A stretch of 64,000 nucleotides of DNA from positions 1 to 64,000 of the forward strand of contig JAURJU010000092.1 of NCBI GenBank assembly GCA_030832085.1, read 5' to 3'. The notes beneath the pieces were generated by a model. The model was not told the origin of the DNA. It saw only the letters and a program-made list of their open reading frames with translations, and made no database searches. This stretch comes from Chitinophagales bacterium (GTDB taxonomy: Bacteria; Bacteroidota; Bacteroidia; Chitinophagales; Chitinophagaceae). Numbering within the stretch: position 1 is the first letter of the stretch; each line of letters opens with the position of its first letter. Positions 1,945 through 59,820 of the stretch are shown piece after piece. A program made the translations under genes and the position numbers.

Positions 1945-4068
1945 ATGATGAGCAACAACGAAAAAACCAGGTTTTACCAAGACAAAAGCAGGGAACTGGC
2001 CGGGCATTTGGATGACCAGTCATTTTTATCCGAAAACATTGACCTCCTTCGGGAAGTCATCCGCTTCCATGAAAACCGTTACTATGTAATGAACGACCCG
2101 CTGGTTTCGGATGTTGAATTCGACCTTTTGTACAAGGCACTGGAAAAGACAGAGGCTACAAACCCCTCACTGGTTGTTCCTGATTCACCCACCCAACGTG
2201 TAGGCCCCGGGATAACCAAGCAGTTCAAAACTGTACAGCACCTTGTACCGATGCTTTCGCTCGAAAATTCTTACGATGCGGCAGACCTGCTGGAATGGGA
2301 CCGAAAAGCAAGGGAACTTTCAGGGTTGGAAAAGCTCTCATACTGTGTTGAGCCCAAGTTCGACGGTGCAAGCATTTCACTGGTCTATGAAAATGATCTG
2401 TTTACCCGTGGCGCCACCAGGGGAGATGGTGTTGAGGGCGAAGACATCACGCTGAACCTTAAACAAATCAAGTCCATTCCACTTTCTGCAACCTTTTCCA
2501 GATACGGCATCCAGCAGGCTGAAATTCGGGGTGAAGTATTGATGAACAAAAACAGCTTCCTGAAATTCAATGAACAACTGCTGGAACAAAATCTTCCACC
2601 CCTGGCCAATCCCCGCAACGCCGCATCCGGATCTTTGCGCTTGAAAGATGCAAGGCTGGTAGGCAAAAGAAATCTCGAAGCCTTTATTTACCACATTGCA
2701 TACCTGAATTTTACACCAGATCATGAAGAAATCCCTTCTCATGCCAAAAGCCTTGAAATGCTCTGGGATCTTGGGTTCAGGAGCCCGGTTCATGAAAAAA
2801 AAGTCTTCCTCGGCATCCAGGGTGTAATTGATTTCTGCAAGGAGTTTGAGGAAAAAAGGGATGAGTTGCCTTACGAGATAGATGGGCTTGTCATCAAGGT
2901 GAATGAGCTGTCCCTTCAGGAAAAACTGGGCATGACCACCCACCATCCAAGGTGGGCCATTGCTTTCAAATTCAAGGCGCGCCAGTCTACCAGCAAGTTG
3001 CTGCAGGTGGAATACCAGGTGGGCCGCACCGGAAGCGTAACGCCAGTTGCAAAAATTCAGCCAGTGCCCATAGGCGGGGTTACCGTTGCATCCATTTCGC
3101 TTCACAACCAGGATTTTATCCGCGAAAAAGACATCCGCATGGGTGACACCCTGTTGGTGGAGCGTGCAGGCGATGTCATACCATATATCGTCAAGTCATT
3201 CCCTGAACTCCGCGATGGCAGCGAAGTTGAGATCCAGTTCCCTTCTCACTGTCCTGTCTGCAAAACTGCGCTGGTCAAGACTGAGGATGAAGCGGTTTGG
3301 AGATGCCCGAACGAGCGTTGTGATGCGCAGGTGGTGGAAAGGATGATTCATTTTACCAGCAAAGACGCAATGGACATCAGGGGATTGGGCGATGCCATCA
3401 TCCGTAAATTTCACGAGATGGGTTGGCTCAAAGACATTCCATCCATTTATCAACTTCCGCTGGATGAGTTGAGAAAGATGGAAGGTTTTGGTGCAAAATC
3501 CGTTACCAACATCAGCGAGGCCATTGAAAAATCAAAAACACAACCCCTGTTCCGGCTGATCAATGCACTGGGCATTCGTTTTGTGGGTGAAACAACTGCC
3601 AAAACCCTTGCCCAGTCTGTGTCTCACTTGCTTGACCTGGCCACCATGGACAAGGAGGCACTGCAGCAAATTGAAGATGTGGGTGTGAAAGTAGCGGAAA
3701 GCATCCACCAGTATTTCAGCAATCCTGCCAACATTGAAATGTTGAAGAGACTGGAAGCGGCAGGATTACAATTGAAAAGCATCAAGCAAGCGTCTGTTGA
3801 TGGAAGCCTGAAAGGAAAAAGCTTCCTCTTCACCGGCACATTGTATAAAATGAAGCGCGCTGAAGCGGAAGCCCTTGTTGAATCCAATGGCGGAAAAATA
3901 CTTTCCGGTGTAAGCTCAAAACTTGATTACCTGATCGTAGGAGAAGATGCAGGATCAAAGCTGGAAAAAGCGAAAAAAATCGCCTCCATCCAGATACTGG
4001 ATGAAGACGGATTTATCAAATTAATTCAGAAGCCAACAGATACTCAGCAATCTGCACAGCATTTGTAG
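1945..4068 (+). CDS. ligA: NAD+-dependent DNA ligase LigA
   Basis: This 707-residue enzyme seals 3'-OH/5'-phosphate nicks using NAD+ in replication and repair. All expected parts are present in order: Ia NAD-binding helices (about 25-105, HENRYYVMNDPLVSDVEFD), adenylation domain with the nucleophile Lys138 in KFDG and the EIDGLVIKV motif near 311, OB fold (about 350-425), a four-cysteine zinc finger (Cys436, 439, 454, 459), helix-hairpin-helix repeats (about 475-600) and a C-terminal BRCT domain (about 622-700). The length is slightly above the usual 670-690 because of an N-terminal extension; a second ATG follows directly. Its last 53 bases overlap the 3' end of the convergent asd gene. Confidence 0.97.
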   Translation: MMSNNEKTRFYQDKSRELAGHLDDQSFLSENIDLLREVIRFHENRYYVMNDPLVSDVEFDLLYKALEKTEATNPSLVVPDSPTQRVGPGITKQFKTVQHLVPMLSLENSYDAADLLEWDRKARELSGLEKLSYCVEPKFDGASISLVYENDLFTRGATRGDGVEGEDITLNLKQIKSIPLSATFSRYGIQQAEIRGEVLMNKNSFLKFNEQLLEQNLPPLANPRNAASGSLRLKDARLVGKRNLEAFIYHIAYLNFTPDHEEIPSHAKSLEMLWDLGFRSPVHEKKVFLGIQGVIDFCKEFEEKRDELPYEIDGLVIKVNELSLQEKLGMTTHHPRWAIAFKFKARQSTSKLLQVEYQVGRTGSVTPVAKIQPVPIGGVTVASISLHNQDFIREKDIRMGDTLLVERAGDVIPYIVKSFPELRDGSEVEIQFPSHCPVCKTALVKTEDEAVWRCPNERCDAQVVERMIHFTSKDAMDIRGLGDAIIRKFHEMGWLKDIPSIYQLPLDELRKMEGFGAKSVTNISEAIEKSKTQPLFRLINALGIRFVGETTAKTLAQSVSHLLDLATMDKEALQQIEDVGVKVAESIHQYFSNPANIEMLKRLEAAGLQLKSIKQASVDGSLKGKSFLFTGTLYKMKRAEAEALVESNGGKILSGVSSKLDYLIVGEDAGSKLEKAKKIASIQILDEDGFIKLIQKPTDTQQSAQHL

Positions 4069-5005
4069 CAGCACCTTTGCGGAGGTTGTCGCTCACAATC
4101 CACATGTTCAGTGTTTTGGGCTGGGTTTCATCGCGGCGGATCCTTCCAACAAAAACCTCATCTTTTTCATGTGCATCCATGGGCATGGGATACTGCTGTG
4201 TGGCAGGATCATCCACCACGATAATGCCGGGCGCATCAGCCAAAATGCGCTTCACCTCATCCAAATCAAATTCTTCCTCAAACTCAATGTTGACGCTTTC
4301 ACTGTGCCCGCCCATGACTGGAATGCGGACAGTTGTTGAGGTTACCCGAATGCTGTCATCGCGCATGATCTTTTTTGTTTCCAGGACCATTTTCATTTCC
4401 TCCTTGGTGTAGCCATTGTCGAGAAAAACATCTATCTGTGGAATCACATTGAGGTCTATGGGATACTTGTATGCCCTTTCCCCTTCTATGCCATTTCTTT
4501 CATTCATCAGTTGTGTAACTGCTTTTACACCAGTTCCGGTAACACTTTGGTAAGTGCTGACCACAATTCTTTTGCTCTTGTAGCGCTTGTGCAAGGGTGC
4601 GAGGGCCACGACCATCTGAATGGTTGAGCAGTTCGGATTGGCAATGATTTTGTCTTCGGCAGTCAATGCATCTGCGTTGATCTCAGGAACCACCAACTTC
4701 TTGGCAGGATCCATTCTCCAGGCTGAAGAATTGTCAATCACCGTAATCCCTGCGGCAGCAAATGCGGGTGCCCATTCTGTTGAAGTGCTTCCACCTGCAG
4801 AAAACAATGCTACAGCAGGTTTCAGGTTGATGGCATCCTGCATGCCAACTACTTTATACTGTTTTCCCTTGAACGTGACTTCCTTGCCCACAGATCTTTC
4901 TGAGGCCACTGGAATAAGTTCGGTAACAGGGAAGTCTCTCTCTTCGAGAACCTGTAACATTTTGGTGCCTACCAAGCCGGTTGCACCCACTACTGCAACT
5001 TTCAT
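4016..5005 (-). CDS. asd: Aspartate-semialdehyde dehydrogenase
   Basis: Asd reduces L-aspartyl-4-phosphate to aspartate semialdehyde with NADPH, the branch point to lysine/diaminopimelate, threonine and methionine. The 329-residue protein starts with the dinucleotide motif GATGLVG (residues 7-13), has the active-site Cys126 in NPNCSTIQ and the catalytic His234 in GGHSES. Length is normal. The start at 5005 places the dinucleotide motif correctly. It is monocistronic on the minus strand and overlaps ligA tail-to-tail. Its 145-base leader contains a promoter, a short Lys/Asn-rich peptide and a terminator hairpin, suggesting control by transcription attenuation. Confidence 0.96.
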   Translation of the reverse strand: MKVAVVGATGLVGTKMLQVLEERDFPVTELIPVASERSVGKEVTFKGKQYKVVGMQDAINLKPAVALFSAGGSTSTEWAPAFAAAGITVIDNSSAWRMDPAKKLVVPEINADALTAEDKIIANPNCSTIQMVVALAPLHKRYKSKRIVVSTYQSVTGTGVKAVTQLMNERNGIEGERAYKYPIDLNVIPQIDVFLDNGYTKEEMKMVLETKKIMRDDSIRVTSTTVRIPVMGGHSESVNIEFEEEFDLDEVKRILADAPGIIVVDDPATQQYPMPMDAHEKDEVFVGRIRRDETQPKTLNMWIVSDNLRKGAATNAVQIAEYLLASELI

Positions 5006-5018
5006 ATTGTCTGATTTT

Positions 5019-5030
5019 CCCCTTGCGGGG
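5019..5030 (-). other. GNRA-loop hairpin just upstream of asd start
   Basis: On the minus strand CCCC-GCAA-GGGG forms a compact hairpin capped by a GCAA tetraloop, ending 13 bases before the asd ATG. It lies between the attenuator terminator and the start codon and may insulate or modulate translation initiation. Function is inference. Confidence 0.4.
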
Positions 5031-5036
5031 TTGGTT

Positions 5037-5064
5037 AAAAAAAGCCTCCCAAATCTGGAAGGCT
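5037..5064 (-). terminator. Attenuator terminator in the asd leader
   Basis: On the minus strand AGCCTTCC (5064-5057) pairs with GGGAGGCT (5050-5043) around a six-base loop, with one mismatch, and is followed at once by seven T (5043-5037). This is a textbook intrinsic terminator, yet no minus-strand gene precedes it except the 18-codon leader frame; it lies between the asd promoter and asd. Its 5' arm is also complementary to AACCTTCC (plus strand 5095-5102) at the end of the leader frame, allowing an exclusive antiterminator. Confidence 0.75.
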
Positions 5065-5092
5065 GTTACATATTTGATACACACAAACAGAA

Positions 5093-5149
5093 CTAACCTT
5101 CCCGCTGGGACTGTTTCTTGTTCTTTTTGTTGTGTTTGTTTTGTGTCAT
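5093..5149 (-). CDS. Putative asd leader peptide
   Basis: An 18-residue frame, MTQNKHNKKNKKQSQREG, starts about 10 bases after the inferred transcription start and stops 28 bases before the attenuator terminator. Residues 4-12 hold five Lys and three Asn codons in a row broken only by one His, matching end products of the aspartate pathway. Its last codons and stop form the segment GGAAGGUU, which can pair with the terminator 5' arm. A ribosome stalled in the Lys/Asn run would leave that segment free; one reaching the stop would cover it. The arrangement is seen in the sequence; translation and regulation are inferred. Confidence 0.5.
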   Translation of the reverse strand: MTQNKHNKKNKKQSQREG

Positions 5150-5159
5150 GTTGCGGATG

Positions 5160-5190
5160 CAAATTTAATCATGAAAGATTTTTCTGCCAA
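5160..5190 (-). promoter_or_regulatory. Promoter of the asd leader
   Basis: On the minus strand TAAATTTG (5167-5160) is an exact TAnnTTTG -7 element and TTG (5190-5188) stands 20 bases upstream, the normal Bacteroidota spacing. Transcription should start near 5153, immediately before the leader peptide. Confidence 0.65.
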
Positions 5191-5243
5191 ATAAATGTTG
5201 TTTTACCCGTTTTGACCTTTTGCAGGCTGGATATTTTCGTGGG

Positions 5244-58899: not shown

Positions 58900-59820
58900 T
58901 TATTTTGAACAAAACTGATCAAAACCCATGCGTGAAAGGTCTTCAGAAAATGCTTCAAAATCAAGCTTGGACATGTTTTTGACGGGTAGCCTGAATCCGC
59001 CACAATCTATCGAGATGGATTTCATAAAAGCCTTTCCAGTCGCAATGCCACCGTACTTCCCCAACAGGCCAATCATTTCAATGGACTGCTGTTGAAGTGT
59101 GCGCGCTTTCGCCATGTCGCCAAGGTTATAGGCTTGAATCAATGCATGGTACAAAGGAGCGGCATAATTGTATGTACTGCCTATTGCAGAGGTTGATCCA
59201 AGCACCAGGGCGGACAGCATGTTCTCATCGCGACCCCACATCATATCATATTTGCCGTTTTTATATTGGAGACAGGACAAGAAATCCATAAAATCTTCAT
59301 GTGTATATTTTATTCCCGCAAAATTTTCAGCCTTGCCGTCCATTTCTTTCAAAAGATCTATCATCGGGAAATTTACACCGGTCAAAACAGGTATATGGTA
59401 ATAGTAAAACGGAAGTTCGGGAACTGCAGCAGCAATTTCCAAACAACATGCGGCAAGCATTTTAACGTTGGCAGGTTTGAAATAAAATGGTGCAGTAAAA
59501 GATACTGCATAGATGCCAATGTCTCTTGAATGAAGGGCAAGTTCCTTGCAATCGGCAATGCAGGTACCTCCTAGAAACATGATCACCTTGAAATCAAGAT
59601 CATCTTTTGTACAACCTGCCCAGGCGGCTGCTACTGTCTTTTTTTCTGACATGCTCAGGGAAACTCCTTCGCCAGTAGAACCACAAATGAAAGCGGCCAT
59701 TACCCCATTCCTTTTCAACATGTCATAATACTCCGGGATCAAATCCAGGTTCAAAGATCCGTTATCGTGCATTGGAGTAAAAGGAGCTGCAATCAACCCC
59801 TCAAAATGAGCAATATCCAT
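58900..59820 (-). CDS. nanA: N-acetylneuraminate lyase
   Basis: The 306-residue TIM-barrel class I aldolase splits sialic acid into pyruvate and ManNAc. Features: GSTGEG (about 47-52) for pyruvate carboxylate, Tyr141 in YYYHIPVLTG and the Schiff-base Lys171 in FAGIKYTHEDF. The family also contains dihydrodipicolinate synthase; the sialidase/epimerase/mutarotase context decides for the lyase. No signal peptide. Its start lies 70 bases after susD, with a strong hairpin in between. Confidence 0.92.
   Translation of the reverse strand: MDIAHFEGLIAAPFTPMHDNGSLNLDLIPEYYDMLKRNGVMAAFICGSTGEGVSLSMSEKKTVAAAWAGCTKDDLDFKVIMFLGGTCIADCKELALHSRDIGIYAVSFTAPFYFKPANVKMLAACCLEIAAAVPELPFYYYHIPVLTGVNFPMIDLLKEMDGKAENFAGIKYTHEDFMDFLSCLQYKNGKYDMMWGRDENMLSALVLGSTSAIGSTYNYAAPLYHALIQAYNLGDMAKARTLQQQSIEMIGLLGKYGGIATGKAFMKSISIDCGGFRLPVKNMSKLDFEAFSEDLSRMGFDQFCSK

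Follow-up and report, generated by a model that had tools for sequence, protein, structure and literature searches.

The region in front of asd

The DNA analysed here, in the following called the window, is a stretch of 64,000 nucleotides (nt) from a Chitinophagales bacterium of the family Chitinophagaceae (assembly GCA_030832085.1, contig JAURJU010000092.1, positions 1 to 64,000). On its minus strand it carries asd (4016 to 5005, ATG at 5005), which encodes aspartate-semialdehyde dehydrogenase (NCBIfam TIGR01296, 433.7 bits with a cut-off of 324.2; NF011456). The region in front of this gene very probably contains a ribosome-mediated transcription attenuator which senses charged lysyl-tRNA. 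An initial annotation, made from the sequence alone, had proposed a ribosome-dependent attenuator at this position, consisting of a promoter, an 18-codon frame with five Lys and three Asn codons and a terminator with seven T, and all of these parts are present in the window sequence.

The promoter (5160 to 5191, on the minus strand like all features described in this section) is of the Bacteroidetes sigma-A type and consists of TTTG at 5191-5188, a 20-nt spacer and TAAATTTG at 5167-5160. It is not Escherichia coli-like, and a scan for sigma-70 promoters and generic terminators is of little power here. Because the -7 box was placed at -12 to -5, as described for Flavobacterium psychrophilum (PMC9723704), transcription is predicted to start at about 5155. 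The leader peptide frame MTQNKHNKKNKKQSQREG* extends from the ATG at 5149 to the stop codon TAG at 5095-5093 and comprises 18 codons, with Lys at residues 5, 8, 9, 11 and 12 and Asn at residues 4, 7 and 10. The predicted 5' untranslated region (UTR) is thus only about 6 nt long. The initial annotation had found this frame but placed it about 10 bases behind the start point, a distance which is counted from the -7 box.

Several RNA segments with more than one potential partner are located within and behind the leader frame. A protector hairpin is formed by arm 1 (5120 to 5135), which lies within the frame, and arm 2 (5079 to 5093), directly 3' of the leader stop. At the tip of this hairpin, UCCC (5107 to 5110) is able to pair with GGGA (5103-5100). 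Antiterminator segment 2, GGAAGGUU (as DNA GGAAGGTT, 5095 to 5102), overlaps the leader stop codon. It is complementary to AGCCTTCC in the 5' arm of the terminator over 8 base pairs including one G-U pair, as the initial annotation had noted. Segment 3 (5056 to 5064, AGCCUUCCA) is this 5' arm and doubles as the 3' arm of the antiterminator, and segment 4 (5043 to 5051) is the 3' arm of the terminator. The whole terminator reads AGCCTTCCA-GATT-TGGGAGGCT (5064-5043) and is followed by the tail of seven T (5037 to 5043). The leader RNA is unusually stable (fold z = -4.6), and none of 200 shuffled sequences was equally stable.

Between terminator and gene, 13 nt 5' of the asd ATG, lies a hairpin with a GNRA loop (CCCC-GCAA-GGGG, 5019 to 5030). 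The initial annotation had described it and had suggested that it may add translational control, a putative role. The hairpin itself proved to be real: it is found with varying stems in 22 of 25 elements of the same genus vs 2 of 22 in other genera. Of the 56 frames of at least 150 amino acids in the window, only asd carries a GNRA hairpin 8-20 nt before its ATG.

Conservation and coupled changes of the helices

A protein search identified asd in 112 of 119 genomes, with the window's own genome counted in. The upstream DNA was compared for 90 of them, comprising 66 of 68 Chitinophagaceae genomes and 24 of 44 genomes from other families of the order. The family was taken as Chitinophagaceae because a named bacterium of that family (L031) has an Asd which is 98% identical. 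In a strict test we searched for a terminator of at least 8 pairs, an antiterminator of at least 6 bases and a frame ending nearby with at least 4 Lys in 9 residues. The full layout was detected in 47 of the 66 Chitinophagaceae genomes, belonging to 23 genera, and in none of the 24 genomes from other families. It did not occur in 1320 dinucleotide shuffles of the 66 upstream regions. Among the relatives which carry the element are Niastella yeongjuensis DSM 17621 (leader MQVIKKHTKTTKTSSIHGEG) and Niabella ginsengisoli GR10-1 (leader MTIKKHTKIKKHP). By eye, no such leader was recognized in named records from other families (Mucilaginibacter, Pedobacter, Sphingobacterium, Dyadobacter and others). 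A TANNTT[TC]G box is located 5-13 nt 5' of the leader ATG in 42 of the 47 relatives. The initial annotation had called for a conserved short frame and covarying stems in related Chitinophagaceae, and both were found.

The 47 elements were aligned (alignment A1) and the helices were analyzed by a swap test, in which each segment is paired with its own partner and with the partners of other species and the pairing energies are compared. The segments were set by alignment columns and one genome per genus was used (n = 23). The protector hairpin (arm 1 with arm 2) gave a z of -7.6, the antiterminator (segment 2 with segment 3) -5.8 and the terminator (segment 3 with segment 4) -6.2; in each case none of 5000 reshufflings was as good. 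Antiterminator and terminator, which share an arm, both pass the test. Eight control pairings among the same segments ranged from z -1.0 to +0.6, and a modest signal was obtained for arm 2 with the linker 5' of the terminator (z -2.5). Counted by columns, 94.8% of the cells of protector stem and terminator are paired and 7 of 13 pairs have changed on both sides, which was not equalled in 500 shuffles; for the antiterminator, 94.1% of the cells are paired. Changes which involve all three partners can be recognized by eye, such as GGAAAGG/CCTTTCC/GGAAAGG in genome G059 and GGGGCT/AGGCCCC/GGGGCT at locus L046. RNAalifold over the whole alignment recovers the terminator only; it probably misses the protector hairpin because gaps shift its 3' arm.

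The initial annotation had regarded the UCCC/GGGA pair as a possible anti-antiterminator. The two motifs can indeed pair, and the UCCC region with segment 2 gave a z of -3.3, with 6 of 5000 reshufflings as good. With narrower UCCC and GGGA segments the values were -1.7 between genera and -3.1 within the genus. The main competitor of the antiterminator, however, is the larger protector hairpin (5135-5120/5093-5079), which had been missed, and the comparison of the sequences suggests that UCCC/GGGA is the less well supported of the two. Since segment 2 lies inside the protector hairpin, a pseudoknot between segment 2 and segment 3 is conceivable.

A strongly conserved RNA structure would also be expected if the leader were a ligand-binding riboswitch or were bound by a protein, the reading frame being incidental. 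However, neither the window nor ten loci with such an element matched any Rfam family at the gathering threshold, the L-box aptamer and the asd RNA RF01732 included. A relaxed search of the region gave as best sub-threshold matches 14.6-22.3 bits vs cut-offs of 40-99, with neither of these two RNAs among them. The only leader family in this search was Phe_leader (19.1 bits, cut-off 55), whereas the His, Leu, Thr and Trp leaders and Bacteroid-trp were not matched. In addition, the position of the stop codon and the Lys codons are kept in the elements, both being part of the selection. Such a riboswitch or protein-binding leader therefore seems highly improbable.

Lysine codons and lysine genes

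Comparison of the 47 leaders showed Lys at four core codons, in 46, 45, 39 and 41 of them, with AAA and AAG exchanged and three gaps at the fourth codon. The leaders had been selected as Lys-rich; this accounts in part for the number of Lys codons, but not for the fixed places of these codons. Pairing alone cannot explain the conservation of the last two Lys codons, which are located outside the protector stem. In contrast, the three Asn positions of the window leader are occupied by Asn in only 10, 1 and 11 of the 47 leaders. The initial annotation had left open lysine or asparagine as the signal. Asparagine was rejected, as its positions are not conserved. Lysine is the likely signal, because its codons are fixed and the same element stands in front of dapA, lysA and lysC in relatives, as described below.

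For identification of further elements, a covariance model (R1) was built from the 47 asd elements and used to search 298 genomes of the order, including 100 Chitinophagaceae. Its E-values are rough, and stricter search filters lose weak matches. At E ≤ 1e-5 we obtained 75 matches, all of them within the Chitinophagaceae. In 70 of the 75 cases, each from a different genome, asd follows the element at a distance of 18-178 nt; 52 of these genomes had not contributed to the model. The remaining five matches precede dapA, and all five proteins score above the TIGR00674 cut-off. The 198 genomes from other families contained no match at this level (best 2.4e-4), and 30 Chitinophagaceae genomes had no asd match at E ≤ 1e-5.

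These distances bear on the possibility that the terminator simply ends an independent short RNA and that asd is transcribed from another promoter. Only a single promoter was recognized in front of the gene, which would fit an RNA of its own. However, the position of asd directly behind the element in 70 of the 75 strong matches speaks against this. The same holds for two genomes of the window's genus, G001 and G011, which lack the attenuator altogether and have a similar promoter directly 5' of the asd ATG. We give very little credence to an independent RNA. The two genomes look like a natural loss of the attenuator, after which the asd mRNA would be nearly leaderless.

A second search of 117 Chitinophagaceae genomes, together with the weaker matches of the first, revealed further elements; downstream genes were inspected for part of the second-search matches. 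Three precede dapA (G373, G055, G392), two precede lysA in two genomes of one genus (contigs G033:C21 and G384:C19), one precedes lysC (G382) and two precede an aminotransferase gene followed by an aspartate kinase gene (G227, G276). In G033 the asd gene has no element, while its lysA carries one. In each of these further elements the frame is Lys-rich, and both terminator and complementary segment are present. The dapA, lysA and lysC proteins and the kinase of G276 exceed the curated cut-offs. The aminotransferase of G227 reaches no curated cut-off, and the kinase of this genome, tested as a 160-residue piece only, is below the cut-off. Three weak matches were not counted: one looks like a gene end with an ordinary terminator (G355:C24), one showed no long frame (G053:C1:956700) and one is located at a contig end (G012:C122).

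In the window's own genome, the asd element is the sole strong match, the next one having an E-value of 0.16. By eye, no Lys leader was seen in 230 nt in front of each of lysC, dapA and lysA of this genome. The window itself encodes a DapA-like protein (58966-59796, minus strand) with 96.5 bits vs the dapA cut-off of 206, which is perhaps another aldolase of the family.

As asd feeds the synthesis of Lys, Thr, Met and Ile, the leader might answer to Thr, and to other residues of the aspartate family, as well as to Lys. Thr is found at one core codon in 37 of the 47 leaders and at another in 17, and several leaders read KHTKRTKK. On the other hand, the window and its close relatives often have N, I or S at the Thr positions. 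The leaders of lysC and of the two aminotransferase-lysC operons keep Lys and contain at most one Thr, the targets dapA, lysA and lysC belong to the route to lysine or diaminopimelate (DAP), and thrA has a Thr/Ile-rich leader of its own. A response to several amino acids is consequently unlikely, although it deserves more weight than the other alternatives considered here.

The thrA/AK-HSD genes were inspected by eye in the window's genome (two genes, L188 and L198) and in relatives (L171-L177), and have Thr/Ile-rich leaders. The stop codon of these leaders lies in a conserved hairpin type, ACAACCCG[TC]TAAGGGTTGTA, which is not followed by a T run. This leader appears to be a different switch from the Lys attenuator.

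An attenuator of the same design as the Lys element was found in front of hisG in the window's genome (L303, G000:C48, approximately 172375). Here the leader MLANGHIHHHHNLP, with the codons for HIHHHH, is followed by the hairpin GGGCTTGCC-ATT-GGTAAGCCT, behind which a T run lies. In 12 genomes 11 hisG genes were found, and each of them is preceded by a His-rich leader; the one at L305 starts with GTG and was read by eye. The strict hairpin rule applies to 10 of the 11. A model of the hisG element without the sensor codons (R2) also finds Lys elements, namely those of the two aminotransferase-lysC operons (E 5e-6 and 6e-6), of lysA (1e-4) and, weakly, of asd in the window (1e-3). A scaffold shared by Lys and His elements is suggested by these matches, and only suggested, because part of the R2 score is contributed by the terminator.

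The hisG leaders are also of interest with regard to a nascent polybasic peptide, which might slow the ribosome regardless of lysine, so that the leader would sense general translation or a cue other than lysyl-tRNA. Other basic residues do occur in the core, with His in 38 and Arg in 12 of the 47 leaders. However, the targets are lysine-pathway genes, and the hisG sister element has His codons at the same place. Such an effect of the peptide is improbable.

With some reservation, and at somewhat less than even chances, we propose a family-wide lysine regulon which arose from one re-usable leader cassette. The cassette would have been placed before asd, dapA, lysA, lysC or aminotransferase-lysC in different lineages. 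As the part behind the sensor would be common to the hisG attenuator, an exchange of Lys and His codons might re-address the switch.

The proposed switch and its relation to known attenuators

Translation of the leader, stalling on lysine codons and an effect on asd are the steps which we infer for this element. Transcription by RNA polymerase would begin about 6 nt 5' of the leader ATG, with immediate loading of a ribosome. With ample lysine, this ribosome would reach the stop codon and cover GGAAGGUU. Segment 3 would then pair with segment 4, the terminator would form and asd would not be transcribed. If lysine is short, the ribosome would wait at the Lys codons (residues 8-12) and cover arm 1 and UCCC. 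This would leave GGAAGGUU free to capture CCUUCC once it is made. With the antiterminator in place, the terminator would not form in time and asd would be read.

The geometry of the elements is consistent with this model. When the stop codon occupies the A site, the computed ribosome footprint includes the complete GGAAGG in all 47, the placement of the stop being a selection rule. When the A site holds the last core Lys codon, at least four of these six bases are left free in 44 of 47. Folding of the window RNA just before synthesis of segment 4 gave a probability of the antiterminator of 0.01 without ribosome, 0.99-1.00 with a ribosome at K8, K9, K11 or K12 and 0.00 with the ribosome at the stop. 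Likewise, 44 of the 47 elements switch between Lys codon and stop in this pre-segment-4 folding.

Other results weigh against the proposed attenuator. In equilibrium folding of the full-length RNA with a ribosome at a Lys codon, the antiterminator exceeds a probability of 0.5 in just 11, 6 and 7 of the 47 elements for three codons. In the window its values are 0.60 (K8), 0.82 (K9) and 0.00 at both K11 and K12. The terminator thus usually wins at equilibrium, and the switch must therefore be kinetic and set by the order of synthesis, on which attenuation generally depends. If no ribosome is present, the antiterminator is favoured in 33 of 47 elements prior to the synthesis of segment 4. In the window leader, segment 2 is also freed by a ribosome at Asn 7, so that the geometry is not Lys-specific. 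Thr is frequent at one codon, as described above. The antiterminator covaries modestly, with two-sided changes in 2 of its 8 pairs, a value attained by 7 of 500 shuffles, and no excess of pair types. Finally, 19 of the 66 Chitinophagaceae genomes fail the strict test. Eight of these (G021, G022, G032, G042, G044, G066, G067, G069) have a visibly related leader of 3 to 5 Lys, either less clustered or with a GTG start, and in six of them model R1 also finds the element at asd. The other 11 (G001, G011, G033, G038, G045, G048, G051, G057, G061, G062, G063) show no visible leader; the upstream region of G048, counted among them, contains 100 N.

If the lysine attenuator operates as proposed, lysine genes appear to be run by leader peptides across much of the Chitinophagaceae, and the layout allows a prediction of the conditions for expression of asd, dapA, lysA and lysC. 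The genomes without element in which the promoter abuts asd (G001, at locus L013, and G011, at L014) represent natural controls. Since only about 6 nt separate the predicted start from the leader ATG, ribosome loading must nearly coincide with the emergence of the RNA. Bacteroidetes start translation without Shine-Dalgarno sequences. Such near-immediate loading makes the coupling of transcription and translation in this phylum directly testable. In Bacteroides thetaiotaomicron, 5' UTRs shorter than 10 nt account for approximately 3.7% (PMC7366714).

The attenuators which are usually taught are those of trp, his, thr, leu, ilv and phe, whereas lysine genes are usually cited with a riboswitch. 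The leaders of these six kinds in Proteobacteria likewise contain codons for the end product and an arm common to terminator and antiterminator, and a ribosome at the stop codon favours termination. The Lys element differs from them by its specificity for lysine, its occurrence in another phylum and the predicted 5' UTR of about 6 nt. In addition, its antiterminator segment is located within the tip of the protector hairpin, and not in the 3' arm as in the trp leader. The lysine riboswitch (L-box) precedes asd in some bacteria. It shares gene and end product with the Lys element but binds lysine directly without translation, and it has no Rfam match here. Attenuator-like sequences have reportedly also been described in front of asd of Streptococcus mutans by Cardineau and Curtiss in 1987. 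The asd RNA motif RF01732 is listed for Lactobacillales (PMC2864571). Both are likewise located before asd, but they belong to another phylum, and RF01732 was not matched.

Within the Bacteroidetes, the Bacteroid-trp RNA is presumably a leader-peptide attenuator. This RNA (RF01692) was described as probably cis-regulatory (PMC2864571); it shares the phylum and the position at an amino acid gene with the Lys element, but belongs to trp instead of lysine and matched neither the window nor the ten loci. In F. psychrophilum, strong clues were reported for leader peptide attenuation before amino acid biosynthesis operons (PMC9723704), and short frames resembling leader peptides were found in long 5' UTRs of B. 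thetaiotaomicron (PMC7366714). The main text of the former study does not contain the word lysine. In literature searches which covered abstracts and passages of openly accessible papers, no lysine attenuator in front of asd or dapA was found. A related case is SEP5 of Sinorhizobium meliloti, a short frame which is translated, contains six Thr and three Lys codons and precedes a gene of the aspartate pathway; it was proposed as a possible leader peptide (PMC10117765). According to this study SEP5 is conserved in Sinorhizobium only, and no alternative helices are described in the passages considered; in both respects it differs from the Lys element. The mechanism of attenuation is thus a known one; what differs here is the probable specificity for lysine, the presence of the element in front of several lysine genes and the predicted very short 5' UTR.

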